48,130 nt of DNA from Bacteroidota bacterium (GTDB taxonomy: Bacteria; Bacteroidota; JABWAT01), in contig JAFLBE010000033.1 in assembly GCA_017303995.1 (NCBI GenBank), positions 1-48,130 on the forward strand, given 5' to 3'. The first letter of the stretch is position 1. The number at the start of each line of letters is the position of its first letter. The notes under the pieces were generated by a model that did not search any database, was not told the DNA's origin, and saw only the letters and a list, made by a program, of their open reading frames with translations. A program made the position numbers and the translations under genes. This document shows, piece after piece, positions 24,047-39,327 of the stretch.

Positions 24047-25846
24047 ATGATTAAAAAAATTGCTCTGAAAAATTTCAAATCCTTTGGGAAAAAACAAGAG
24101 ATAGAACTGAAACCGATAACCCTGCTTTTTGGGCCGAACAGCGCAGGGAAAAGCTCCATTTGGCAAAGTATTGTTTATCTGGAAGGATTTTTGCGTTCTC
24201 AGAATCCGGATGTTTATCAAACTGCAAAAACATTTGGTTTTATCAATTTTAATGGCCTTAAATCCATTTTGAATCGAAATTCCACAGATCATATCATCGA
24301 TCTTAGTTTTGTGACTGAGCATTTTATCAATGGTCCCACTACTTATCCATATAAAATTATATCAAAGCGCTACGTTAGTGGCGCATGGCATTATATTATT
24401 GAGAAAAAGTGTACTTTACCTTCTTTTAATCTTGAAGTTAATTTAAAATTTGATACAATAAATAATAAGGTAATTCATTTAGAAATAACTTTTATTGGAT
24501 TTGCCTACCCAATTATGGAATGGTTAGTAGTTGATGTAAGGCATCCTGAGAATATTCCAAATAATCCTCTCATTGATTGGAGTTTTGATCCCAAACTTCA
24601 AAGATATTTTATTGGCTCTAAAACTGATGAATATGCAATCCGGGTACCATTGGTAAAAATCAGTGATTGTGGCATCCCGTATCTCGCCTACTTTGATGCC
24701 TATCTGATGGATCTTCTATTTGGTTTAAAACAGGATAAAAAGAACAACTATAACCCAGATAAGCTATTGAAAGGCATGAAAAAGAATTGCGGCAATTTTG
24801 TGTCGAAAGTGACCCTTGAAAATTACACAATTCCCTTTAAGGAAATGGATCCTGAAACAGCAAAATGGATGATGAATGATCCTATTTTTAACGGACAGTA
24901 TTTGGATGTTTTGTCAATGGAACTTCCTGAGGAATTTATTGAACTGGTAAAAACAAAATATAATTATTCTGATGAACAAATAGATGATCTGCAGAATTAT
25001 TTTGGGTCATTGTTTCATCTGACTCAGGACTGTAACTTTAATCTGAAATCCTTCTTTCATCAGGATAAGGTCCTGGCAAATAAAGTTCAGATTACCAATG
25101 AACCGTGGGGTAGCCCCGCCTTGGGTTTTGATGATAATTTAGCCTACAAAAACCTGAACTTTCAACTGGATAATATTGAATATCTGGGTTATTTCAGAAG
25201 TGTGCCAGATTTGAATCAACTACGAATTGAATATGAAAGCCCTGTAAACCGATCATGGAAACGGGTGTTTGAACCCAGGTTTATTAAAGAAATCAATCAG
25301 TATTTAGAGGAACATTTCCCTGATATTTCCTATCTGTTCAGAATCAATGGCGAAACAGGGGAGTATGAAATCATTGATCGAAAAACCGGAGTAAATGTTC
25401 ATCCAAAATCAATCGGGATTGGGATCAGTCAGTTGATGCCGATCATCAGTTCCGCAGTTACAAATCAGTACCAACTTCATATTGTCGAACAGCCGGAGCT
25501 TCATCTTCACCCGTCACTTCAGGCACGGGTTCCAGGTATATTTATCGATTCGTTTATGAAAAATGAGAATACCTATATTATAGAAACCCATAGTGAACAT
25601 ATTATCAGATCCTTTCAGTTGGAAGTTGCCAAATTCAAGGTTTCAAATAAAATGAAAGGTATTAATCCGGATTTCCTTGCCATTTATTACGTTACGAAGG
25701 ATGCTGACGGCAATTCAATCATCAAAAAGATGGAACTGAATGAAAATGGTGATTTTACTGAACCCTGGCCGGATGACTTTTTTGATTCTGCAACCGATTT
25801 AACCATGGAACGCCTTAAAATCCTTTCCGGATCCCAAAGTAACTGA
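24047..25846 (+). CDS. ABC/AAA-type ATPase, DUF3696-like
   Basis: 599 residues. N-terminal ALKNFKSFGKKQEIELKP leads to Walker A GPNSAGKSS (29-37). Far downstream are IGIGISQLMPI (signature-like), VEQPELHLHPSLQA (Walker B with HLHP) and YIIETHSEHIIRSFQ (His switch). The roughly 400-residue insertion between Walker A and B, with VEQPELHLHP and ETHSEH, fits the DUF3696-type ATPases often found in defence islands. The partner gene starts within its stop codon (TGATG). Likely sensor or regulator of the next gene's product. Confidence 0.82.
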   Translation: MIKKIALKNFKSFGKKQEIELKPITLLFGPNSAGKSSIWQSIVYLEGFLRSQNPDVYQTAKTFGFINFNGLKSILNRNSTDHIIDLSFVTEHFINGPTTYPYKIISKRYVSGAWHYIIEKKCTLPSFNLEVNLKFDTINNKVIHLEITFIGFAYPIMEWLVVDVRHPENIPNNPLIDWSFDPKLQRYFIGSKTDEYAIRVPLVKISDCGIPYLAYFDAYLMDLLFGLKQDKKNNYNPDKLLKGMKKNCGNFVSKVTLENYTIPFKEMDPETAKWMMNDPIFNGQYLDVLSMELPEEFIELVKTKYNYSDEQIDDLQNYFGSLFHLTQDCNFNLKSFFHQDKVLANKVQITNEPWGSPALGFDDNLAYKNLNFQLDNIEYLGYFRSVPDLNQLRIEYESPVNRSWKRVFEPRFIKEINQYLEEHFPDISYLFRINGETGEYEIIDRKTGVNVHPKSIGIGISQLMPIISSAVTNQYQLHIVEQPELHLHPSLQARVPGIFIDSFMKNENTYIIETHSEHIIRSFQLEVAKFKVSNKMKGINPDFLAIYYVTKDADGNSIIKKMELNENGDFTEPWPDDFFDSATDLTMERLKILSGSQSN

Positions 25847-26796
25847 TGGAACGGATTTATTCTTCTAACGGATTGGTCGATGAATTTATTGCCGGGTTGA
25901 ATCCGTTCAACGGAAATCCGACGATTTATGCTTTAAACGAATCAGTCAGAAAAAATAAAGTGACCGTTTCATTTCCGCAACGGTTGATTCCTTATTTGGA
26001 AAAAAAAAGAAAGAATACCACAGATCAGATTCAAAAAGCAATACTTGAAGGGTTCCTCAATCATTTGCAATCAGGCAGAATTCAGGTTGTACTGAACCCA
26101 AAGCCACTAAAAGCAAAGCTGACAATTAGAAAATCCATTTTGGAAGATATCAATTATGCAACGGGGACGTCACTTGTTATTGAAACAAGGTTAACCCAAA
26201 AGGATCCCGTCAATGATCTGATTAAACTTCTTGGATGCCACCTGTTTACCGAGTTAAATTTACCGTTACACTTGCTTTCTGGTTTGTTTTCATCACACAC
26301 ACTGCCAACTATTTCTCAGGGAACAGATTTTTCATGGCAGTCCTACCTTCGGGATTTCGTTGTATTCACAAATGAAATAACAATTGTAGATTCCTATATA
26401 CTCAAAAACCCCGAGTCTTTTGCCAATCTGGTTCAAATAGTTTCTCTTTTTGCCTGTCTTCCGTTCAATCATAAAATATCCCTTCGGATTATTACAAAGA
26501 ACCTTTCGATTCCACTCTCAGAAATCCAGGAAAAACTTTCCAAATGGATAAATGAGGTCAGGATTTATAAGCCGAGACCAACAGCAGAATTTTCATTTCA
26601 TGACCGTTGGCTGATTACCGACCAATGGATTTTAAATTCTCCGGCAGGATTTAATTTGATTAAAAGTAATGGAAAATCCACACATGAAACTACACCTGTA
26701 CTCTATGGCAGATATTCGTATTCGGATGATATCTGGATTCAGAATACAGGGAAATTGGAAAGTTTAATTCAGGATCAATGTGAATTGGTAAAGTAG
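25846..26796 (+). CDS. Unrecognised partner of the DUF3696-like ATPase (316 aa)
   Basis: I do not recognise a family. The protein is soluble, without signal or membrane segment. The C-terminal third contains FHDRWLIT, a pair of bases apart from WILNSPAGFNLIKSNGKST: an HDR-type motif followed by a Gly-Phe-Asn stretch is reminiscent of degenerate phospholipase-D-like nucleases, but the HxK motif is absent. Its start overlaps the ATPase stop by one base, so it is translated with it and is probably the effector or adaptor of a two-gene module. Confidence 0.75.
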   Translation: MERIYSSNGLVDEFIAGLNPFNGNPTIYALNESVRKNKVTVSFPQRLIPYLEKKRKNTTDQIQKAILEGFLNHLQSGRIQVVLNPKPLKAKLTIRKSILEDINYATGTSLVIETRLTQKDPVNDLIKLLGCHLFTELNLPLHLLSGLFSSHTLPTISQGTDFSWQSYLRDFVVFTNEITIVDSYILKNPESFANLVQIVSLFACLPFNHKISLRIITKNLSIPLSEIQEKLSKWINEVRIYKPRPTAEFSFHDRWLITDQWILNSPAGFNLIKSNGKSTHETTPVLYGRYSYSDDIWIQNTGKLESLIQDQCELVK

Positions 26797-28178: not shown

Positions 28179-29114
28179 TTATTGTCTTTCCTGGGCAAAG
28201 CTATCACCCTTTTTGTTTAAAAAGTTTGTAACCTGACGGCTCGCTGATTGTATTGACCCCTCACCGGGAATCATCTCAAATCGTTGAACTTTACTACTTT
28301 TCATCCAGTTCGTCCAGTAGTCCTCCAGAATTTGGCGCTCTGATGGATTTAATTGGTTTTTCTGCCGGAATTCAGCAACGATAACCTCCCATTTCTGATC
28401 CTTCAGATTAACTGGAATAAGCCCGGATTCGCCATTTGCGATTTGAGCTTTCAACCGGGGATCCCGAATTACCTTTTCAGCCGACATCCAGGATTGAAAA
28501 TGTTCATCTGCAGGCCTGCCAGCCAGAAATCTGGATTCAAACTGGATATAGCCATCTGTTAGTATAATCAGAATATTTCTAACCTTAACAGTTGGAGAGG
28601 AGGGCACAAAATATCGGGTTAAGTCAAAAGCCATAAACCTCCAGATATCTGCGCCTGCAAAAGTGGGTTCAGAAACCGCACTTTGGTATAAACTATTGGT
28701 TGAAGGCCTGAAACCGGCAAAAAAACGATCAGTTTCCCGCTTTTTCTGAACTGCCGGTACAGATGAAAGATCCAGATCCAACTGATCAAGATTAGCGGAA
28801 AGCGCATTCTCATTGCCGGTAGGTTGTGGAGCAACCAATATCCGGAACTGATCAGCGGAATTCAGGTAAAGTTCTGATTTTACCTTTTCCCTGAAATACT
28901 TCCCGATCACTGAAATCATTGCTGTATCCCGTGTCCACTGATCAGGGTGTTCTGCCGGACTAATCCGGTCAGAAAGATCCAGCAAGAGGGTCAGATTAAT
29001 GGCTTCCCGGACTACCGGTGCAGGCTCAGTTTCTTCGCCACCAGATACCGAGATGGTGATCAGAACACCTGCAGCAAATAAAAACCCTAAAGTGATGAGA
29101 AGTGTTTTTGACAT
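28179..29114 (-). CDS. Membrane-anchored von Willebrand factor A-like protein
   Basis: 311 residues. An N-terminal hydrophobic segment (4-24) acts as signal anchor or signal peptide. The following domain opens with the strand LTLLLDLSDRIS: Asp46, Ser48 and the next acidic residue form a DxSx-type MIDAS, and ILIILTDGYI (Asp187) supplies the last MIDAS Asp. Extracytoplasmic placement is likely. vWA domains bind partners through a metal. It is 3 bp downstream of the four-helix membrane protein, its natural partner. Confidence 0.8.
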   Translation of the reverse strand: MSKTLLITLGFLFAAGVLITISVSGGEETEPAPVVREAINLTLLLDLSDRISPAEHPDQWTRDTAMISVIGKYFREKVKSELYLNSADQFRILVAPQPTGNENALSANLDQLDLDLSSVPAVQKKRETDRFFAGFRPSTNSLYQSAVSEPTFAGADIWRFMAFDLTRYFVPSSPTVKVRNILIILTDGYIQFESRFLAGRPADEHFQSWMSAEKVIRDPRLKAQIANGESGLIPVNLKDQKWEVIVAEFRQKNQLNPSERQILEDYWTNWMKSSKVQRFEMIPGEGSIQSASRQVTNFLNKKGDSFAQERQ

Positions 29115-29117
29115 GAG

Positions 29118-30449
29118 TTACTCCATAATTGTATTTGAGAGAGGGGAATTGTCAACAGAACCCAGATACATAGCCTTAAACCGGTCGAGTTCGATATTGG
29201 ACTGAAGACTGATTTCACGGGCTTTATCAGGCTGACCAAGGCTTGAAAAGTGGCGGTTAACCCATTCCTGCCATCCTGCCAAAAAGGTATTCAGAACAGA
29301 GAACAGTTCATCTCTGCGAATGAAAACGCCGGTCAGTGATTTCTCATAGCTGTCGATGGTTTCTTCCAACCCCTTCATCCGGGTTTCAAGTTCAGCTTTT
29401 GTCCGGTTTAGTCCTTCCAGCTCTTTTTCCAGTTCATCACGAAGGTTTTTACGGTTATTCCAGAGGTTCTTGGCAAACTCCCGGTTTTTTTCTTCCATCA
29501 TGAATTCTGAAAGTAATTTTCCCCAGGCAAAGTAGGCGACGAAACCGAGGATAAAGACCAGATAAAATCGAGGATCGATAAACAACGCACCAAAAGTCCA
29601 GGGTTCTGTTTTAATACCCATCACAAATTCCATGTTATAGCCTTGATAGGTAATCATGAAGGCAAGAACGAAATCAACGATTAACCCTAAAATGATGTAT
29701 ACCGGGCTAATGTATGGTTCTGTGTTTGCACTTTCTGTTTTTAACCCTTTTCTGAAAGGATGGGCCAGGTAACCAAGTCCAAGGATGAAAAACCCACCCA
29801 AAATGATTACCAAAATTGGGGCGCCGGCACGCCATGCCAGTTTGAATGAATTGGGATCAAAAACGGAGTTTAGCAGGTTATGCTGGTTTGATGAAGTAAT
29901 CGTACTGAAATCAATGGTTTTAAACATTGCCATGTACAAGGCAGAACTATAAAACAGAATGAGATAGAGGGTAATGGCAGCAAGGGTGACCGCAAGAAAA
30001 ATATAATTCAGACGGTTGAACGGTGATTCAATTTTAAATTTCTGAGGATCTGTATTGATCTCATCCATCTCACGGGAAAGTAAACTGATTTTGCTTTTCA
30101 CAGGCTCAATTTTTAATTCAGTTAAATTGAGAATATCCTGACCCAGTTGCTGTTTTTCAGGACGAAGTCTCGACAGCACCTGAAGGGCAGAATCCGCAAC
30201 TGACTTGCATGACTTTTTAAATTCACTGTAAACAATAGAAAGGCAATCGGTGATGCTGTTCGGATTGCATTGATGCCGGATCGCAAGTTCCATTCCAAGC
30301 TCATACCACCTGTGATTTTGATTTCCCATTGGAGTTGGTTCTGTATTCGGATGGGTCTGCACGATGCCGGGAAGTTCGTGGGGAACCGGACGTGAACTCT
30401 TTTCTGACTGATGATTGCCATTCATTGTTTGTGTTTTTTCGGGTGTCAT
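29118..30449 (-). CDS. Four-helix membrane protein with coiled coil
   Basis: 443 residues from ATG 30449. The N-terminal 145 residues are soluble with a helical region; transmembrane helices are near 149-169, 208-228, 248-268 and 293-313; a long coiled coil (about 320-372) follows, with LRDELEKELEGLNRTKAELETR. The ends should be cytoplasmic. I do not recognise a family. The longer frame from 30590 would add 47 residues without conserved look and would take up the divergent promoter. First gene of the leftward operon. Confidence 0.8.
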   Translation of the reverse strand: MTPEKTQTMNGNHQSEKSSRPVPHELPGIVQTHPNTEPTPMGNQNHRWYELGMELAIRHQCNPNSITDCLSIVYSEFKKSCKSVADSALQVLSRLRPEKQQLGQDILNLTELKIEPVKSKISLLSREMDEINTDPQKFKIESPFNRLNYIFLAVTLAAITLYLILFYSSALYMAMFKTIDFSTITSSNQHNLLNSVFDPNSFKLAWRAGAPILVIILGGFFILGLGYLAHPFRKGLKTESANTEPYISPVYIILGLIVDFVLAFMITYQGYNMEFVMGIKTEPWTFGALFIDPRFYLVFILGFVAYFAWGKLLSEFMMEEKNREFAKNLWNNRKNLRDELEKELEGLNRTKAELETRMKGLEETIDSYEKSLTGVFIRRDELFSVLNTFLAGWQEWVNRHFSSLGQPDKAREISLQSNIELDRFKAMYLGSVDNSPLSNTIME

Positions 30450-30699
30450 GGGAGCCTCTGTTTGGTTTTGTATTTTGGGATTCGGGAGTCTATACCACAA
30501 CAGAGTGTTTTTGTCGGGGAAATTTAAAATATAACAAAAAAAACTTTCCACAGGACAAGATTTAATACTTTGTGTTCGGAAATCCAACATGAGTTAATTG
30601 ACCAGGGTTAGAAGATCTTTTCACAAGACAACCTGATTTATGAATTTGCCTTTACTTTGGAATTCTGATATTTTAACAATCAAATAGTGAAAGGCACTT
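30450..30699. promoter_or_regulatory. Divergent promoter region of the island
   Basis: About 250 bp between two start codons in opposite directions (30449 leftward, 30700 rightward). It must hold the promoters of both operons, so the two are probably controlled together. I see AT-rich stretches (AATATAACAAAAAAAACTTT near 30530) but no clear -35/-10 pair. AAAGGCA lies 6 bp before the rightward start. Confidence 0.5.
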
Positions 30700-31197
30700 A
30701 TGCCAAGAATATTTGATCCCGAAGCCTATTTTGACTCTTTTGTCAAAATGACATCAAAAATTCATGAGAAACCCAGACAGGATGAATTTGACCCTCAGTG
30801 GGACAAACAAAAGTTCGGAACAAAATGGTATTTACCGGATCGGCTCGTCAAATTCAGTGAGCTGCATGAAGCCCCTGCGTCACGCAATATTAAATCCTCG
30901 AATCGCCCGGGGGTAGTAGTTTTAGAACCTTTCAAGGGGAAAAATCCAAAAACCCTATGGTGTCCAATGTCCCATCAGCTTCATGGTGAAAACACAAAGG
31001 TTATTATTTATGGATGCCCCTCTGATGACGCTGAATTTGGTTGGATATATGTTTTATTTTCTCAATGGGTAAAACCTGGAAGGCTAAATGGACCCGGGTT
31101 AAAGTTGCCTGAAGCTACTTACCAAAAATTTCTTGATGTTTATAACAAATGGATGATTGAACAAGAGCCAAAACTCAATTCACAGGCGAAATTATGA
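30700..31197 (+). CDS. Unknown protein, first of the rightward operon (165 aa)
   Basis: Soluble protein with many Trp, Pro and Lys residues. Notable parts are FGTKWYLPDRLVKFSELHEAP, LWCPMSHQLHGENTKV (Cys and two His) and AEFGWIYVLFSQWVKPGRLNGPG. The Cys/His content could bind a metal but has no CxxC pair. Not recognised. It overlaps the next gene by 4 bp (ATGA). Confidence 0.7.
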   Translation: MPRIFDPEAYFDSFVKMTSKIHEKPRQDEFDPQWDKQKFGTKWYLPDRLVKFSELHEAPASRNIKSSNRPGVVVLEPFKGKNPKTLWCPMSHQLHGENTKVIIYGCPSDDAEFGWIYVLFSQWVKPGRLNGPGLKLPEATYQKFLDVYNKWMIEQEPKLNSQAKL

Positions 31198-32387
31198 CTG
31201 ATAAAGGAATACAACAGGAACTGGATCTTCGCCGGAACTTTGAAATTCTTGGAAATCCAAGTGGGATCCCAAATAAGACTGTTGAGAAAGCATGGAATGA
31301 TATTTTTGGCACGATTTCAAAAATGTTGAATTCATTTCCTCAATGGCGCGAATTAATCAGGAAAGACCCGGATTGGATTAATACGGAATATGATTTTTGT
31401 CTTAAAATTTATGAGAAATTTAGTGAGAGATTAAAAAGGAATTCAATCGATGAATATGGTGCTTATCTCCTTACCATTTCTAAAAATGAATTATTCAACA
31501 AGGACAATAAAATAAAACCGACCATTAAGGGTTTTCGTAAAGTTTTTAATGAATTGATCAAGGATTTAAAAATAAACGGAATTATATACTCTGTAAGCAT
31601 TGAGCTTGATATAGTAAAGTCGAAAATTGTATTTGACAAAACGAAAACCGTTCTACCTGCTGTTTCTTTTGAAGAAATTTCACATATAGCACTAAACAGC
31701 CTTTCTGAAATTAGTTTCAATTTCAAAAAAGAACCTTTTAATGATAACTATAAAGAACATCTAAAAATACTTGTCATTGAAGTATTGAAAGAAAGTCAAT
31801 CTCCTGTCTGGATTGGAGACCTTAGGGTAGCTCTAATTGAAGCGTTAAACCTCGACCCGGAAATTGAAATCAAGGACGATGAAACTGATGCCGATTCAGA
31901 TGACTTTCATTCTGAAAAAACAGAACATGAAAAATGGATTGGTTCAGGAGAACTGGATACTGGACAGATTGCAACACTATCTGCTTTTGCAAAGGACGTC
32001 TACTTTAAGCGCTTTTCAATTTTTTTAAAACAATCAGGGTCTAAAGTTGATATTTGGAGATATGTGCTTTATCACAAAATAGGGGAAGACTGGAAGGGAA
32101 TTCATGTTGTTGAAGCAATAAACCTTTATTTTGGTTCCTCAGTTATCAGTAGTGCAACCTTAACACAATGGTTGTCTGGCAGACTAAATCTGGATGATGC
32201 AGATAAAAATATCAATGAAGCTATCATGATGGTTATCGGATCAAATGTTCAGCTTGCTTCGGCTGCATTTAATTTATCCGAATCAATTAAAATCGAAACC
32301 GCAAGGGAATTGGGTTTGAAATTGCCGGACACAATTTGTGCCGTCATCCAGAATAAAATTAATAAAAATACCGGGTTGAAGAACTAA
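31194..32387 (+). CDS. Unknown protein, second of the rightward operon (397 aa)
   Basis: Mostly helical. A central acidic linker (about 224-245: KDDETDADSDDF and so on) divides the protein into an N-terminal half of about 220 residues and a C-terminal half containing VDIWRYVLYHKIGEDWKGIHVVEAINLYFG, which might be a helical repeat or a DNA-binding-like domain. No motif recognised. It lies between two other operon genes with a 4-bp overlap upstream and 22 bp downstream. Confidence 0.72.
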   Translation: MTDKGIQQELDLRRNFEILGNPSGIPNKTVEKAWNDIFGTISKMLNSFPQWRELIRKDPDWINTEYDFCLKIYEKFSERLKRNSIDEYGAYLLTISKNELFNKDNKIKPTIKGFRKVFNELIKDLKINGIIYSVSIELDIVKSKIVFDKTKTVLPAVSFEEISHIALNSLSEISFNFKKEPFNDNYKEHLKILVIEVLKESQSPVWIGDLRVALIEALNLDPEIEIKDDETDADSDDFHSEKTEHEKWIGSGELDTGQIATLSAFAKDVYFKRFSIFLKQSGSKVDIWRYVLYHKIGEDWKGIHVVEAINLYFGSSVISSATLTQWLSGRLNLDDADKNINEAIMMVIGSNVQLASAAFNLSESIKIETARELGLKLPDTICAVIQNKINKNTGLKN

Positions 32388-32409
32388 CCTGAAGTGAAAT
32401 GGAATTATT

Positions 32410-33528
32410 ATGATAATCAAAAATCCCGATCGACTTATTTCAATTCTTAATATAGAGCTTCCCCTTGAAGAAAGAAAACGAGTTTTAGAGCTTTTTAAAG
32501 CTGAGAACCCTGATTTTAGTGTTTTACAGGACATGACACTTAGTGAAGAACCCTTTATAACCCATAGTCCTGATTTTGGTTCCATTGCTATGGAAATCTT
32601 TTCGGGTAAACCACCCAAAGCAGGTGAAATCTGGAATTTGGAAAATGTTAAAGCGTTCCAGATTCTATTAACGACCCAAATTCAAATTAATGATGATACC
32701 TCCATTTGGAGAGGGCTCCCTGTTTTTTCAGATTCAGATATGGTAAGTGACTCATGTTTTGTTGGAAAGGGTACAGAATTTTTTCCTGAGAAAACCTGGA
32801 TCATCGACTTCAGGGAAACCATTATCTGTGAAAATAGCAAACTGAAACGATTGGTAGACCGGACACCAGCTACATGGTCTTCTGTTTTATTTCATGCAGA
32901 ATGGAATCATATCACCTGGCTGTCTGACTCAAAATTTGAAACAGGTTCAGGCATAGAGGTTTTACTTCCTGAAGGATTACTTCACGGAAGTGAACAGGCC
33001 GATGAAGATGATGCCGATCATCGTGAATTTATGATGAATAAATACCGTCATTGGTGGGAAGTATTTTTAAAATACCCTGCGGAATTATTATTCACTCCGG
33101 TTGAAGAAGAACAGAAACCAGTAATTTTAATTTTAAGTCGACCAGATTTTGCCTATCAGCACCGTCTTGCTGCCTCAACTTCAAGTGCGGTTCCTTCATT
33201 TTATGATGAAGGCGTTAGTTTACTTTATACGTCTGATGATCTTGAAATTAAACTGGTTTTCGATTCTGAGTTTTTGTACATCGGTGTTTTTCAGTTAAAT
33301 GATGATAAACTGCCGTTGAAATTATATCTCGAACTTTCTGGTCTTTCATTGCTTCCATTTCATGCTGACAGTGACCAGAACCTGAACCGTGCAATTTTTA
33401 AAATTCCTGCAGATAGCAATTTAGAAGCAATACTGAAAAGTGAATTTACACTTTCAATCAGGGATGAATCGGATGGGTATCTTTTCGAACAAGACTTCCT
33501 GATCGAATTTAGACCAGGAAGTAAATAA
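32410..33528 (+). CDS. Unknown protein, third of the rightward operon (372 aa)
   Basis: An acidic protein with a helical start (1-30), a beta-rich middle and an Asp/Glu patch EQADEDDADHRE (about 196-207) followed by WWEVFLKYP. The last 110 residues alternate in a beta-sandwich manner (LEIKLVFDSEFLYIGVFQLND, LKLYLELSGLSLLPF). Not recognised. Its stop and the next start share a base (TAATG), so it is coupled to the Lon-like gene and may be its substrate, sensor or scaffold. Confidence 0.72.
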   Translation: MIIKNPDRLISILNIELPLEERKRVLELFKAENPDFSVLQDMTLSEEPFITHSPDFGSIAMEIFSGKPPKAGEIWNLENVKAFQILLTTQIQINDDTSIWRGLPVFSDSDMVSDSCFVGKGTEFFPEKTWIIDFRETIICENSKLKRLVDRTPATWSSVLFHAEWNHITWLSDSKFETGSGIEVLLPEGLLHGSEQADEDDADHREFMMNKYRHWWEVFLKYPAELLFTPVEEEQKPVILILSRPDFAYQHRLAASTSSAVPSFYDEGVSLLYTSDDLEIKLVFDSEFLYIGVFQLNDDKLPLKLYLELSGLSLLPFHADSDQNLNRAIFKIPADSNLEAILKSEFTLSIRDESDGYLFEQDFLIEFRPGSK

Positions 33529-34700
33529 TGGATAACTGGCATTTACTCGCTGATAACGTTAATCTTGCCGTTTTAGATTTTGTTGAAAACAATAAAACAA
33601 AAAAGGATTATAAACAACGATTTGAAGATTTCCTTGTTTCAAAAATAGGTGAAGACCGTTATTATCTTCTTAACCCTGCATCACGGAATTTAATTGAGAA
33701 ATCAGATATAAGAAGTTCGATTAGCAGGGGAAATTATAATTTACCATCTCCTGAAATCGGGGAAGCCTACCTTCTCACTGTTGACCAATCTAATAAGGGC
33801 GTAATACTAAAAATTAAACAGGAAAAAGGGAATATCGATGGCGCAACCCGGATTGCTGAAATGGACAACTTTTTATTTAAACTCCATCAATTTCTAAGAG
33901 GGGAATTAAAGGAAAAACTTTGGCCAAATAAACAATTTTTTTACTATGATTTTTACCAGACTAAAAATTCCCCCGAGATAACCACACTATTGGGAAATAA
34001 AATATCAGATGGAAAAAACATATACGGACGATCCCTTGAACTTCCTCTTTTTCTATCGTGGATATCTCTCCTGATTGGAAAATCAATTCCAAAAAATATA
34101 GCAGCAACCGGTAGTCTTAAAATTGAAGGCAGGCAAATTGGTGTAAAATGGGTGAATGGAGTTGATTACAAAATCGATTCCCTCGGATATGAAATTCCTG
34201 GAATAACCCGCTGTTTTATACCAGTTGATTGCCCGGCACCGGAAAAAAGAGAAGGTATCTCTGTCATTCCGGTTTCTGATGTAAATGAGGTTTTAAAAGA
34301 AGTTTTTGGGCAATCACTAATTGAAATAATTGATTACCTGATTTCTCAACAGGATTATCTTGGTAGTATTGAATCAGTCTGGGTGAAAATTGAAAGTGAA
34401 TTTGGTAGAAAAAAACCAGTTAACTCCCTCAAATATAAATTCAATGATGCACCCAAATATAAAGTACGCGATCAGTATAACCCTCTGTTACTTAATGATA
34501 TTACAATTGATTTGCCAAAACCAACACCTCCGTCAATCGTGTTCGATAACTTTAGACCTGCCTGGTTGGTTGCAAGTCTAAGTATGCCGCTTTTTAATCA
34601 TGGGATTATTGGAACCTATAATGATGTTCAAAAAAACATTACTATAATTGGCTCCGACGATACTGATTTTGAAATTGGAACAACCTGCAAGGAAATCTGA
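33528..34700 (+). CDS. Lon-like (S16) protease-domain protein
   Basis: 390 residues without an AAA+ domain. Residues about 80-262 follow the Lon protease fold: YGRSLELPLFLSWISLLIG (Ser169), AATGSLKIEG, NGVDYKID (Lys215), CFIPVDCP and VSDVNEVLKEVFG. Ser169 and Lys215 sit where Lon has its catalytic dyad, 46 residues apart against 43 in E. coli Lon, with a three-residue insertion between. BrxL in this window has lost these residues. A peptidase without its own ATPase suggests use on a defined substrate. Residues 270-390 are unknown. A second frame carries on well past the stop, so the C-terminus may be frameshifted. Confidence 0.7.
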   Translation: MDNWHLLADNVNLAVLDFVENNKTKKDYKQRFEDFLVSKIGEDRYYLLNPASRNLIEKSDIRSSISRGNYNLPSPEIGEAYLLTVDQSNKGVILKIKQEKGNIDGATRIAEMDNFLFKLHQFLRGELKEKLWPNKQFFYYDFYQTKNSPEITTLLGNKISDGKNIYGRSLELPLFLSWISLLIGKSIPKNIAATGSLKIEGRQIGVKWVNGVDYKIDSLGYEIPGITRCFIPVDCPAPEKREGISVIPVSDVNEVLKEVFGQSLIEIIDYLISQQDYLGSIESVWVKIESEFGRKKPVNSLKYKFNDAPKYKVRDQYNPLLLNDITIDLPKPTPPSIVFDNFRPAWLVASLSMPLFNHGIIGTYNDVQKNITIIGSDDTDFEIGTTCKEI

Positions 34701-34743: not shown

Positions 34744-35646
34744 TCAAATTGAAATTAATCTGCCTATGACTTCGCAGAACCGGTTTGCATTTTCCTCAAC
34801 TGTAGTGAGAGATAACCGGCACTTTTCATTTTCTTTCTTGCGGTAAATTTCTCTTGCCCCTAATTCTGCTATTAAGGCAACATAGTCATCAACTTCCTTT
34901 TTTCTGTCGGGCAGGTATTTTTGAAGCTTAATTTGTGACGGAAAATAAACGTCCAGACTTCCTCCTGTTCTGTTCATCAGACTGAGTCCATTCGAACCCG
35001 TTTCCGGAGAAAATATTCTCAATGAAAACCCATTTTCTCCCATTGTATTGAACATGATTTTGTTTCTTTTAACCGAAGTATTCTCGAGAATTCGTGTTTC
35101 ACCGAAAAACGTATAAAAATGGCTGACTAACCGGCTCTTTTTCATTTTATCAGAAAGTGAAACCGATTTCTGGTTATTTCCTTTTCCTTGGATCACATAA
35201 TAATCCAAAAGGGAAGTCAGCAGTTTTATACTTTGAGACGTCTGAGTTCCCTCGAAATCGGATCCAACTTTTTCCAAATGATGGAAAATCTCTTCAAGTG
35301 AAAGATCGCAAGAACCAAAACCCCGTTTTCCAATGATGGAATAAACTGGCAAAGGCTGACCTGTCCTGTAGTTTCTGAGTTGTTTTTCATCCTCATGGCC
35401 CAATTCAACTTCAATATACCCCCATTTCTCCGTTCCTTTTTTAATAACAAAGTCAGGCCGGCCTACGGCATCAAATTCTTCAGTAGTCAGGTTGGGAGAT
35501 GGATAAATGACACAGTCTGTAGGGATATTCAGTTTTGAAAAAACAAAATCTCTTATTTCCTTAACCATCAACAGATGAAATAAACTGATATTGACTCTGT
35601 TCTCAGGTTTGGCTGTATCTTCTTTGAAGTGGATTTCTTTTGTCAT
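34744..35646 (-). CDS. Nuclease-like protein of PD-(D/E)XK type (300 aa)
   Basis: The N-terminal half has GRPDFVIKK (Asp65), then a strand WGYIEVELGHED with Glu79-Val-Glu81, a D...ExE variant of the PD-(D/E)XK nuclease core, and RNYRTGQPLPVYSIIGKRGFG as following strands. The C-terminal half (about 170-300) has no match. It runs toward the Lon-like gene, 43 bp apart, and inside the right inverted repeat. The missing Lys of ExK leaves activity open. Confidence 0.65.
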   Translation of the reverse strand: MTKEIHFKEDTAKPENRVNISLFHLLMVKEIRDFVFSKLNIPTDCVIYPSPNLTTEEFDAVGRPDFVIKKGTEKWGYIEVELGHEDEKQLRNYRTGQPLPVYSIIGKRGFGSCDLSLEEIFHHLEKVGSDFEGTQTSQSIKLLTSLLDYYVIQGKGNNQKSVSLSDKMKKSRLVSHFYTFFGETRILENTSVKRNKIMFNTMGENGFSLRIFSPETGSNGLSLMNRTGGSLDVYFPSQIKLQKYLPDRKKEVDDYVALIAELGAREIYRKKENEKCRLSLTTVEENANRFCEVIGRLISI

Positions 35647-35712
35647 GGTAGTTTTTGTGTTTGTGAAGGAGAATTGTTGAAAACATTTAGAATGTTAGAC
35701 TGAACTTAGTCA

Positions 35713-35732
35713 GTCCCGAACACAATCGGGGA
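35713..35732. other. Perfect-stem hairpin upstream of the nuclease-like gene
   Basis: TCCCGA and TCGGGGA form a short GC stem around ACACAA. No T run follows in either direction, so it is more likely a protein site or an RNA leader hairpin of the leftward nuclease gene than a terminator. Confidence 0.45.
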
Positions 35733-35843
35733 TACCGTATTCTATGTTTGTAAATCAAGTCAGTTGTCATTAGTTAACTTGAAATTTTGGGTTCGATCTG
35801 ATCTGGTCACTTATTTTTCAAAGTCATTTGAGTTTATTCTATT

Positions 35844-35967
35844 GGGCTTCTCTAAAAACCTCAACAAATGTCATCCTCTTCAAGGTTCGTTTACAAACTG
35901 CGGATCCGGTGAAAATTGGAAACGTGTTTGGGCTAACGAAGTTTTGCGAAGCTCATCAATTATAAAG
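35844..35967 (-). repeat. Right copy of the inverted repeat bounding the 9-kb island
   Basis: Reverse-complement partner of 27035-27112. The parts CTCTAAAAACCTCAAC, ATGTCATCCTC, TTGGGCTAACGAAGTT and GCGAAGCTCATCAATTATAA match, with about 45 bp extra between the inner and outer parts. Confidence 0.75.
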
Positions 35968-36023
35968 TGATAAATAATGTTTTTAGAAATGCCCCAAAAA
36001 GGAGATTAATCCTGAGTGTTTAG

Positions 36024-36131
36024 TTACAATCTGGAAACAACCCAAAGTGCAGTGAGCACAAAAACAACAAGGAAATATTCCCAGGTCTTATCCCATACCT
36101 TGGTAAAAAAATCCTTTATTCGTTTTAACAT
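36024..36131 (-). CDS. Small single-helix membrane protein (35 aa)
   Basis: The product starts MLKRIKDFFTKVWDKTWEY, a basic amphipathic helix, and ends with a transmembrane stretch FLVVFVLTALWVVSRL. It lies outside the right inverted repeat. The plan of a basic amphipathic helix joined to one membrane helix fits small toxins and small regulators. No family recognised. The rest of 35647-36420 shows no other gene. Confidence 0.45.
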   Translation of the reverse strand: MLKRIKDFFTKVWDKTWEYFLVVFVLTALWVVSRL

Positions 36132-36420
36132 ATTTTGACCTTTTGAAAAAATAATATTTCAGCCCTTAAAGCAATTGATTAATAATCTGGAATGTAATGG
36201 TCACTATTGTTAATTTTCAACCTTAATTGTTGTTTTGGCAAATACCATCGTTTGGAACTTGAAAACAAAAGCTAAAATCACAGATTGTTCTCTCAAATTA
36301 CTATCAAAAATTGTGATGGCCAGAAAATATTTGAATCATATTTTTGGCCATGAAAGTGTTTCTATGGTTAGTAGGATCCTGGAGGGGACCTTGGTTTCAT
36401 TACAACCGCTGCCTTCTGTA

Positions 36421-36457
36421 TTGTAAATAATTTTTCGAGTTATGATTCCGAGTAAGA
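36421..36457 (-). repeat. Possible decayed CRISPR repeat
   Basis: Aligned without gaps to the 37-bp repeat of the array at 46.7 kb, about 24 of 37 positions match, with TTTCGAGT and GAGTAA kept. Alone this would be weak; it lies at the 3' border of the helicase module, where the pattern of the region predicts one. Confidence 0.35.
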
Positions 36458-36466
36458 AAATAGCAG

Positions 36467-36631
36467 CTAAAGGTTTAAGGCTTGGCGTAGTGGAGGATTT
36501 TTAGATCTAAACTTCAATCGAAAAACTGCACTTGAACTTTGCACATAACTGTCATACGAAGCATTGAACTCTCCATTGGGCAAAACCGCTGTTACCGGTT
36601 TTGGCTTCTTTTCTGTCGTCATTTTCTCCAT
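36467..36631 (-). CDS. Small reading frame coupled to the helicase stop (54 aa)
   Basis: ATGGAGAAAATGA places this start inside the last codons of the helicase gene. The product (MEKMTTEKKPKPVTAVLPNG, later FRLKFRSKNPPLRQALNL) has natural composition at first; the last 25 residues come from a sequence that I recall as a dispersed repeat in Bacteroidota. It may be a real small protein or the cut-off start of a lost gene. Confidence 0.3.
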   Translation of the reverse strand: MEKMTTEKKPKPVTAVLPNGEFNASYDSYVQSSSAVFRLKFRSKNPPLRQALNL

Positions 36632-39327
36632 GTTTTTCCTGTTCGATCGAAATTGTCCGAGATAAAATTTAGGTCGCTGTTTAGTTCTTCTTTAACAGTC
36701 AGTCCCAAGTAAAATGTTGCCCGTGATAAACCGACATATAGATATTTTAGAAGCAAGTCACTCGATAAGTTTTGGTTTTGAAGTTCGTCAAGATTGTGGA
36801 AGAAAACAGCTTCAAATTCCAACCCTTTTATTTTGTCAATTGAAAATATTCTAACTGTGTTTTTAACACCCAAAACTTCACCATTTCTGCAAGCTTTAAC
36901 AAGGATACCAACGTCTGCTAATGTGTCAAGATTGCCAAGTTGAATGGCAAACCCTTCAAGCTGACTTTCGTTAGGTAAAAAAATTGCGATTGAAGGAATT
37001 GAATCACCATAAGCTTTATAAATTTCAATTATTCTTTCTGCTATCCAATTAAGTTTTTCATCTTCATCGTCAGAGACAAGAATTAACGGTTTAGGTTCAT
37101 CTTCGTCTTTTTCAATGTAGGATTTATAATTAGCCTTGTTTCCTGTTGATTTTTCATAAATGGATTGTGCTAATGAAAGTAAAGTAGGACTTTGACGATA
37201 TGATACTTCCAAATCTTTTCTCTCTGTTCCCGAAACAACACTTGAAAAATCTTCCCAAGAAGTCAAACCGTCATTGGTCATTCTTTGCATAATATCACCC
37301 GATAGTGTTACAGATGATAATTGTGGATGCCTAAAACTGTTTATTGCCAAAAGGTCAATTATCGAAAAGTCAGTTGCTTCATCAATTCCAATAACTGGTT
37401 TACAATTATTTTTAAAGGCTGTTAAATATGGATGATTTAAGCTGTTGAATTGTCTTTGAAAACCTTTTGATAAGCAGAAACAAACACTATTTGTAAAATG
37501 GAGAAGAAGAGCCTGTTCATCCGAATGGATTCTGCTATTCTTGTCTTTTATTAACAATTCATTCAAAATCTCCAAATCCCAATTCTTGTTCTTAGAAGCT
37601 AATTGGTCTCGTCTGTGTTTTTTGTAAATCATCGGTATTTCTCTCAAAACATTAGCTAAAACACCTTTGATTACTCTTTCAAAGAATTTTTTGAAGAATG
37701 CCGTTTGACCAATTTGTTCGTATTCGTTTTGTATTTCAACTTCCGGAATTAGCTTTAATAGTTCACGGTCACGTTTACTGTATTTAGTGTTTTTATCAAA
37801 TATTTTCAATGCTTGCTTACGGCAAAGTGATTTCAACTTAGTAAAAAGTTCTCTTTCAAAATCAAACGCTGTTTTTTCTTCTTTTTCTTCAAAATCTTCC
37901 AACTCAATTTCTGTATCATCATCATCATCATCTTCTTCTATATCTTGGTTGGTATTCTTCCACTGATTCAAAATATCAGAAAGGGCGGTAGCTCTTTCTG
38001 AATCCTTTGTAATTATTACTTGAATCCTGCCAGCAACTTGTTTGATAAGTGTAGAATATTCTTCTGCGATTGTGTCCGATTTAACTTTGTATGTTTCGTT
38101 AAGATTTAAAAATAGTCGGATTAATTCATCAATATTTTTGACGTTTTTCTTATCAATGAGATATTTTTGGATTGATAGGCCGGTATTCTTCCATTTGAAT
38201 GATGATACATCTATTTCGGCAACCTTATTTAGCTTGTCCTTTTGAAAGTCGATATAAAATTTATTTAGCCCTGAAACAATTTCTTGAATGTTCTTGGGTT
38301 TATTTACAAAAAGGCTTTTTCCGTGTGACTTAGTATAAATCAAGAAAGGTCTTTTTGTAGTTGTATCAACAAGTTTGTAAGCTTTTACAAGTTCATTTTT
38401 ATGTGAACCCCACACCTTAACTCTTTCCGTGTCGGCATTCAGTTCTTCCATTTTCATACTGTTACGAAGGAAAAGTGCAAGCAATTCATTTGGAGAATAA
38501 AAAATCCAACTTGTTTTTTGATTAAATAGAATGTCTTTCTGGCTTTGATTTAGGGTTGTGTATTCTTCAATTGACGGAGAAATAAGAAACTTAATTCTTT
38601 GTATAAGAGAAGTGGTTTTTCCAGTTCCTGGTCCACCGTTTATAATTAGTGAGCCGTCAAATATTTTAGAACGTTTTATGGAATCCTGAATAGGGTCAAG
38701 AATTGGCTGATAACGTAATTCTGCATATTTCCTGATGAAACCTTGGGCTTTATCAAGATATGTTTTCATTTCTGCTTCTTTGTCGGCAATGCGCCGAATC
38801 AATTGTTGAGCTTCTTGGTCAGTCGCATGCTCTAATTTTTCTTTTTCTTTTTCTATCTCAACTTGTAAAGATAGAATTTTTGAGATGTTCTTAAATGAAT
38901 GAGTTCTGCTGTCTCCCGAAAGTTTGATTAGTATGTCGGTGGCATATTCTCCATCATAATTACTCGGATTGTAGCCTACTCGGTTAAATATTTCAATTGT
39001 AATTTCTCCCCGGGGCGTTTGATACTTGTGTTTGCCTTCGTGGAATTGAATCAATAGCCCACCCAATTTAGAGTCTCTTGGAACTGGGAAGCCGTCACCT
39101 TTGTATGTTGTGGCTTCTGTAAAGCCTGTTTCAGGAATAATGTTACCGTGCAGGTCTCTTTGAAATTGAACGACTGTCGCTTGCTTGTTAATAAGCCAAA
39201 ACTGGTGTTCTTCTTTGTGGTACATTGTCATTGAACGGCCAACTGCATTGTTTGTCGCTCCCACAGAAATTTCCAAGTCTCTGTGTCGTTTTATGCTTTT
39301 CGCTATATCCTCAATTTTTTCCTTCAT
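36619..39327 (-). CDS. UvrD/HelD-like superfamily 1 helicase (902 aa)
   Basis: Walker A GGPGTGKTTSL (about 228-238), Walker B region VIGIDEATDFSIID (about 650), motif III SGDIMQR, and the C-terminal motifs KGLEFEAVFF and LYVGLSRATF are those of SF1A helicases. The N-terminal 225 residues include a coiled coil (about 150-200) as in HelD-type proteins. A run of Asp (about 464-470) sits in an inserted region between the motor parts. It could act on DNA or on stalled RNA polymerase; the large N-terminal part favours a dedicated role. It is the only large gene of its module and starts 84 bp from a CRISPR-repeat relic. Confidence 0.8.
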   Translation of the reverse strand: MKEKIEDIAKSIKRHRDLEISVGATNNAVGRSMTMYHKEEHQFWLINKQATVVQFQRDLHGNIIPETGFTEATTYKGDGFPVPRDSKLGGLLIQFHEGKHKYQTPRGEITIEIFNRVGYNPSNYDGEYATDILIKLSGDSRTHSFKNISKILSLQVEIEKEKEKLEHATDQEAQQLIRRIADKEAEMKTYLDKAQGFIRKYAELRYQPILDPIQDSIKRSKIFDGSLIINGGPGTGKTTSLIQRIKFLISPSIEEYTTLNQSQKDILFNQKTSWIFYSPNELLALFLRNSMKMEELNADTERVKVWGSHKNELVKAYKLVDTTTKRPFLIYTKSHGKSLFVNKPKNIQEIVSGLNKFYIDFQKDKLNKVAEIDVSSFKWKNTGLSIQKYLIDKKNVKNIDELIRLFLNLNETYKVKSDTIAEEYSTLIKQVAGRIQVIITKDSERATALSDILNQWKNTNQDIEEDDDDDDTEIELEDFEEKEEKTAFDFERELFTKLKSLCRKQALKIFDKNTKYSKRDRELLKLIPEVEIQNEYEQIGQTAFFKKFFERVIKGVLANVLREIPMIYKKHRRDQLASKNKNWDLEILNELLIKDKNSRIHSDEQALLLHFTNSVCFCLSKGFQRQFNSLNHPYLTAFKNNCKPVIGIDEATDFSIIDLLAINSFRHPQLSSVTLSGDIMQRMTNDGLTSWEDFSSVVSGTERKDLEVSYRQSPTLLSLAQSIYEKSTGNKANYKSYIEKDEDEPKPLILVSDDEDEKLNWIAERIIEIYKAYGDSIPSIAIFLPNESQLEGFAIQLGNLDTLADVGILVKACRNGEVLGVKNTVRIFSIDKIKGLEFEAVFFHNLDELQNQNLSSDLLLKYLYVGLSRATFYLGLTVKEELNSDLNFISDNFDRTGKTWRK

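Follow-up and report, generated by a model that had tools for sequence, protein, structure and literature searches.

A predicted Lon-Csx3 protease in a type III CRISPR-linked operon, probably of the CalpL/CalpT/CalpS kind

The four-gene operon and its Lon-like protease

The window analysed here, a stretch of 48,130 nucleotides from a Bacteroidota bacterium (contig JAFLBE010000033.1), holds a run of four tightly coupled genes on the forward strand with a gene pair divergent from them. These genes, the domains of the last of them, and the basis for each assignment are:

28179-29114, reverse strand: 311-aa vWA-like protein, candidate output gene and partner of the 490-aa protein (homologue in genome G481, 5e-88; vWA motif by eye)
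29118-30590, reverse strand: 490-aa membrane/coiled-coil protein, candidate output gene (divergent from the operon; modules of G215 and G481 adjoined by a like pair)
30700-31197, forward strand: 165-aa MazF-like protein (family profile against MazF structures in the PDB, E=1e-8; column check)
31194-32387, forward strand: 397-aa sigma-factor-like protein, in the place of CalpS (family alignment; Sigma70 matches in relatives)
32410-33528, forward strand: 372-aa protein, candidate anti-sigma factor and protease substrate, standing where CalpT would (15 co-conserved genes aligned; weak MazF-like stretch)
33528-34700, forward strand: Lon-Csx3 fusion protease gene, last of the operon, 390 aa (16-member family alignment)
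33762-34313, forward strand: S16 (Lon) protease domain, residues 79-262 (AlphaFold2 and Foldseek; family profile against the PDB)
34032-34034, forward strand: codon of the predicted catalytic Ser169, in a G-x-S motif (invariant in 16 members; aligned with the Ser of A. fulgidus Lon)
34170-34172, forward strand: codon of the predicted catalytic Lys215 (invariant in 16 members)
34380-34697, forward strand: Csx3/Crn3-like domain, residues ~285-390, proposed sensor of cyclic oligoadenylate (cOA) (hhalign, PF09620, PDB by family profile, residue count)

The open reading frame of the last gene begins with ATG and overlaps the preceding gene by one base. Taken alone, its product is a weak match to the Pfam Lon_C model (E=0.02, under the cut-off), and reaches the LonB-type models of NCBIfam at E ~1e-5 and the LonB protease domains of A. 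fulgidus in the PDB at 2e-4; in the latter alignment Ser169 pairs with the catalytic Ser of A. fulgidus Lon. An initial search of 198 genomes gave four further matches to the window protein: three short proteins, each with a gene of ~330-380 aa immediately upstream, and one true, long Lon. Profile searches then widened the set of genomes carrying the module to 16. Viral contigs and plasmids gave nothing specific when searched singly with the window protein and with two of its relatives, and a scan of genome contigs with a single protein returned only the G010 record itself.

With the 16-member family profile, Lon protease-domain structures in the PDB are matched at 2.5e-20 over residues 79-261 and CalpL at 6.6e-6, whilst Lon_C is detected in 14 of the 16 members (best 5e-10). 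The AlphaFold2 model of the protease domain is confident (blocks of 86-95 over residues 171-270), and a Foldseek search with it finds Lon proteolytic domains (E=1e-8, target TM 0.65). A first-pass annotation, made from the letters of the window, had proposed a Lon-like domain at about residues 80-262 and had named structure prediction as the check to be made; both the placement and the S16 fold are borne out.

That annotation had also put Ser169 and Lys215 at the dyad positions of Lon, and here the alignment is in full agreement: only six of its columns are invariant (Met1, Ser169, Ser180, Gly195, Lys215 and Glu222), and as the other members share just 15-24% identity with the window protein, the dyad is under strong selection. 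No AAA match, such as the AAA+ ATPase domain of classical Lon would give, was found in the 390-aa protein or in its family. Taken together, the sequences support an ATPase-free S16 protease with predicted activity. The BrxL protein encoded in the same window also has a distant S16-like domain, but one in which the dyad has been lost and to which an AAA+ ATPase is joined; as first remarked from the sequence, Gly stands in for the Ser, and no Lys pairs with Lys215, the alignment being gapped there, within the stretch NLAEFLQ.

Two other readings of the gene were considered and rejected: an inactive, BrxL-like pseudo-protease, by the invariance of the dyad, and a fragment of LonB, by the retention across the family of the length, the operon and the C-terminal domain.

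The C-terminal Csx3-family domain

The idea of a ‘free-standing’ peptidase in a coupled operon survives only in part. The ATPase-free S16 protease and the tight coupling both stand, but the protease domain does not occur alone; the protein carries a C-terminal Csx3-family domain (residues ~285-390), likely serving as its signal input. The last ~100 residues have in common a motif reminiscent of Csx3, DNxRPxW...N...AI...G. In direct searches, two of the 16 members are matched by PF09620 (Cas_csx3), at best with 0.0014; against the G215 relative, whose Lon-Csx3 gene is split across two contig ends with an identical overlap of 46 aa, the model scores 20.9 bits, or 22.2 in frame context, with a cut-off of 21. 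When the family was compared by hhalign with Csx3 sequences from other genomes, a probability of 97% was obtained, and it remained at 96-97% after the most Csx3-like members had been dropped. Among the controls, none of 20 column shuffles exceeded 0.2%, the reversed alignment reached 0.6%, and other families gave 0.3%. The 16-member profile also reaches the solved Csx3 structures of AF_1864 (6yud, 3wzi and 6vjg) at ~9e-4. By contrast with the family, the domain of the window protein by itself gives 0.5% with hhalign and is unrecognisable, so that its assignment to Csx3 rests on family membership.

Csx3 proper is a cA4 ring nuclease with catalytic residues H60, D69, R71 and H80 (PMC7371418). 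At the equivalent positions the window protein has N, N, V and S. Counted over the 16 members, and in A. fulgidus Csx3 numbering, H57 is kept in none, H60 in three (with Asn in eight), D69 in six, R71 in one and H80 in two; P48 and W50 are kept in ten and nine, respectively. It might be argued, from the homology to Csx3/Crn3, that the protein is mainly a Crn3-type ring nuclease that degrades cA4, with an inert Lon domain attached. We consider this very improbable, as the five residues from H57 to H80 are mostly missing, the Lon dyad is invariant, and a separate ring nuclease, Csx20, accompanies the module in half of the genomes. Efficient ring nuclease activity of the Csx3-like domain is thus unlikely on its residues, and with the catalytic set mostly lost the domain probably senses, rather than degrades, its ligand. 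We note that few of the cA4-contact residues are kept in the window domain either, which counts against a cOA model.

No description of a Csx3-Lon fusion was found in the openly accessible papers on Csx3 and Lon consulted here, although subscription papers and supplements may mention one. For the Csx3/Crn3 family, the accessible part of a ring-nuclease survey mentions the Crn3-AAA-ATPase fusion only (PMC12409355), and the fusion was likewise not found in the accessible parts of an effector survey and of a terascale CRISPR survey.

Association with type III CRISPR loci

The distribution of the four-gene operon follows that of type III CRISPR. In a set of 344 genomes, 12 of the 14 that carry the module have Cas10, as against 57 of the 330 that do not carry it (odds ratio 29, Fisher p=1.2e-7, with kinship between genomes ignored). 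The linkage can also be seen directly in several genomes. In a Melioribacter MAG (G010) the operon lies co-oriented and directly upstream of cas10-csm2-csm3-csm4-csm5 and two CARF genes; in G003, whose family is that of the window's genome, it comes behind a CRISPR array (~35 repeats), cas1 and cas2, and upstream of the module there are a III-A locus and Csx20. The cmr genes of G401 are immediately downstream of the module, and csm/cmr-type genes, a CARF gene and Csx20 are near it in G545. In G584 there are an RT-cas1, a 26-repeat array and Csx20, with a cmr-type locus encoding a GGDD Cas10 upstream, and in G417 a 19-repeat array and Csx20. The Cas10 genes of G065 and G215 are on other contigs than the module. 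In addition to the four-gene module, G494 encodes a second, divergent Lon-Csx3-like protein (L095:4319-5149, reverse strand), which keeps the G-D-S motif and the Lys, and adjoins a GGDD cas10 and csm2-csm3. In all, a Csx20 gene occurs near the module or in the CRISPR locus in eight of the 16 genomes; in the accessible part of the same ring-nuclease survey, the Csx20 family is given as a confirmed cA4 ring nuclease (PMC12409355).

Searches with TIGR02578 and TIGR02577 had at first suggested that the window's own genome lacks Cas10, but the more inclusive PF22335 corrected this and brought up a type III-D locus on another contig (C74), with a Cas10d (E=2e-113) in which GGDD is intact, together with Csx10, Csx19, a TIGR03986 RAMP protein, a CARF-PD-(D/E)xK nuclease and a CARF-RelA fusion. 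The module itself belongs to a defence island, and the contig that carries it is not the one with this CRISPR locus; this again counts against the cOA model.

These observations bear on a further possibility, that the operon is a protease/anti-sigma/sigma stress module answering to some signal other than cOA, whether a protein or a different nucleotide, and that it retains its Csx3-like domain for oligomerisation only. Two genomes, G183 and G372, carry the module and gave no Cas10 when this was searched for, and the poor retention of ligand residues in the window protein points the same way; the strong enrichment of Cas10, the embedding of the module in type III operons and the several modules adjoined by Csx20 argue against it, and on balance we regard such a non-cOA module as quite unlikely.

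Some further features of these genomes are worth recording. The modules of G183 and G372 (L006 and L043) sit among housekeeping genes, with genes for seryl-tRNA synthetase and a PriA-like helicase nearby. The CARF-RelA fusion of contig C74 (L093:17945-19309, forward strand) combines a CARF domain of Csx1/Csx14/Crn1-like type with a (p)ppGpp synthetase domain of RelA/SpoT type (PF04607, 4e-22); CARF-linked RelA systems have been named UAS-50 (PMC10910872). In G453, a protein of Csx3-AAA type (L097:751-1683, forward strand), in which a P-loop NTPase-like region comes after a Csx3 domain (PF09620, 3e-17), adjoins a vWA/TM pair and type III-D genes.

Operon partners and a proposed pathway

The order small MazF-like, sigma-like, larger MazF-like and Lon-Csx3 is kept in the 13 genomes in which it was measured, with overlaps or short gaps between the genes; G215 has the same genes but with that for Lon-Csx3 first. 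The 165-aa protein is, by its sequence, a MazF homologue with the predicted catalytic residues retained, all 13 aligned members having the catalytic-site Arg69 and Ser/Thr91. The members of the 397-aa family differ widely from one another. The G494 relative of the 397-aa protein shows Sigma70_r2 and then r4_2, in the right order, and the G215 relative Sigma70 r4_2, in both cases under the curated cut-offs; such matches are confined to a minority of members. The structure model of the 397-aa protein is poor, and Foldseek gave nothing significant with it, though bacterial sigma factors were among the named matches. For the 372-aa family there is a PemK_toxin match in one relative (E=9.6e-4) and a weak profile similarity to the 165-aa MazF-like protein; by size and position the 372-aa protein would fit CalpT, this being the less secure side of the assignment.

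The closest parallel is with the CalpL/CalpT/CalpS system of Sulfurihydrogenibium, in which CalpL, a Lon-SAVED protease, oligomerises upon binding cA4 and cuts the anti-sigma factor CalpT, bound to the ECF sigma factor CalpS (PMC11417357), with a CalpT fragment that resembles MazF (PMC9704534). Common to both are a Lon domain that lacks an ATPase and is followed by a nucleotide sensor (in Lon-Csx3, a predicted one), a single operon and an association with type III systems, and the window operon has candidate counterparts of the MazF-like and the sigma-like partner (PMC11417357, PMC9704534). They differ in the sensor, which in Lon-Csx3 is a Csx3-family domain and not SAVED, in the additional small MazF-like gene of the window operon, and in that the Lon-Csx3 family matches archaeal LonB structures much better than it does CalpL. 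The PADLOC models for SAVED-Lon match the Lon part of the G183 relative and nothing beyond it; as we looked for SAVED and did not find it, we place the module with the CalpL/CalpT/CalpS kind without calling the protein a CalpL. Csx3/Crn3, with which the C-terminal domain is grouped by profile, differs from Lon-Csx3 in having no fused protease, and in the ring-nuclease residues that are mostly replaced here. CARF-Lon fusions predicted near type III loci (review PMC9704534) are also type III-linked sensor-Lon proteins, set apart by description through their CARF sensor. An activated protease acting on a sigma-linked partner, as we propose for Lon-Csx3, has a further counterpart in Craspase. This comprises the TPR-CHAT protease Csx29, Csx30 and a sigma factor; its protease differs from Lon-Csx3 in being caspase-like and switched on directly by the effector complex itself, with no second messenger.

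We therefore think it likely that the operon at 30700-34700 is a type III CRISPR-linked proteolytic module resembling CalpL/CalpT/CalpS, in which a Csx3-family sensor stands in for SAVED. Such a substitution is mechanistically sensible, as Csx3 dimers stack head-to-tail around cA4, in cA4-sandwiching filaments (PMC7371418), and SAVED-Lon forms filaments on binding cA4 (PMC12751052). In the proposed pathway, Cas10 of the type III-D locus on the other contig would detect foreign RNA and produce a cyclic oligoadenylate, most likely cA4; the messenger would sit between the Csx3-like domains of adjacent Lon-Csx3 molecules, drawing them into a head-to-tail assembly like those of Csx3 and SAVED-Lon with cA4; and assembly would turn on the Ser169/Lys215 site, leading to cleavage of the 372-aa protein, in the place of CalpT, and hence to release of the sigma-like 397-aa protein, which would retarget RNA polymerase, perhaps towards the divergent pair of membrane and vWA genes. 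The first-pass annotation had suggested signal-triggered cleavage of a specific partner, possibly the 372- or the 397-residue protein. A signal-triggered, specific protease of the CalpL sort is indeed the most plausible reading; by analogy with CalpT we favour the 372-aa protein as its proposed target, with the 397-aa protein as the sigma-like partner.

Alternatively, a messenger-activated Lon-Csx3 might cut an operon partner so as to release the 165-aa MazF-like protein as an mRNA interferase, the outcome being abortive arrest and not a change in transcription. An early reading of the CalpL system was of this kind (PMC9704534), and the homology of the 165-aa protein to MazF, with its invariant catalytic-site residues, would suit it; set against this are the sigma-like gene in every fully read member of the module, the later work in which CalpT is an anti-sigma factor (PMC11417357), and the failure to identify an antitoxin-like gene. 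We regard release of a toxin as unlikely.

Our best guess for the output genes of the preferred pathway, which ends in transcription, is the membrane/vWA pair at 28179-30590. The 490-aa protein has four TM segments and a coiled-coil; relatives of the vWA-like protein gave no Pfam match, and its G481 homologue came up in a search with a profile built from the genes of the window and of G215. A homologous pair adjoins the module in G215 (L042) and G481 (L072), and candidate pairs in G453 (L071) and G613 (L069) were judged by reading only. No promoter motif common to the operon and the vWA/membrane genes rose above shuffles. A separate, CRISPR-linked effector is an alternative candidate role for the vWA/TM pair. 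We also record that a similar pair adjoins the type III-D cas genes of G453 (L097).

Put together in full, the proposal is that Csx3, known as a ring nuclease, has here become a catalytically dead cOA sensor whose head-to-tail assembly activates Lon, releases the sigma-like factor and switches on the membrane/vWA operon, and that this constitutes an undescribed class of CRISPR effector, with G183 and G372 having recruited the switch without Cas10; we put this complete version forward tentatively, as possible but with the odds somewhat against it. More generally, the Lon-Csx3 operon probably represents a new form of the switch by which a nucleotide that signals virus attack alters gene expression. 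Should this be true, the CRISPR-to-transcription protease pathway, represented so far by SAVED-Lon, would be modular, with the same protease/MazF-like/sigma logic served by a different nucleotide sensor, and Csx3 would gain a second role, as a sensor and not a remover of the signal. The family supplies 17 testable members, several in or beside type III loci, and, for the CRISPR-to-transcription pathway, a candidate regulon.

Two further gene pairs in the window can be mentioned. The pair at 24047-26796 (forward strand), adjoining BrxL, is a defence system of Menshen-like type, matching PADLOC NsnB (3.5e-44) and, weakly, NsnC (4e-4); its second protein is also a weak match to the C-terminal part of a BrxL model (0.0012). 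Directly after the module, at 34744-39327 (reverse strand), a 300-aa protein of no known family is encoded with a 902-aa UvrD-like helicase, and these two may possibly form another defence pair.
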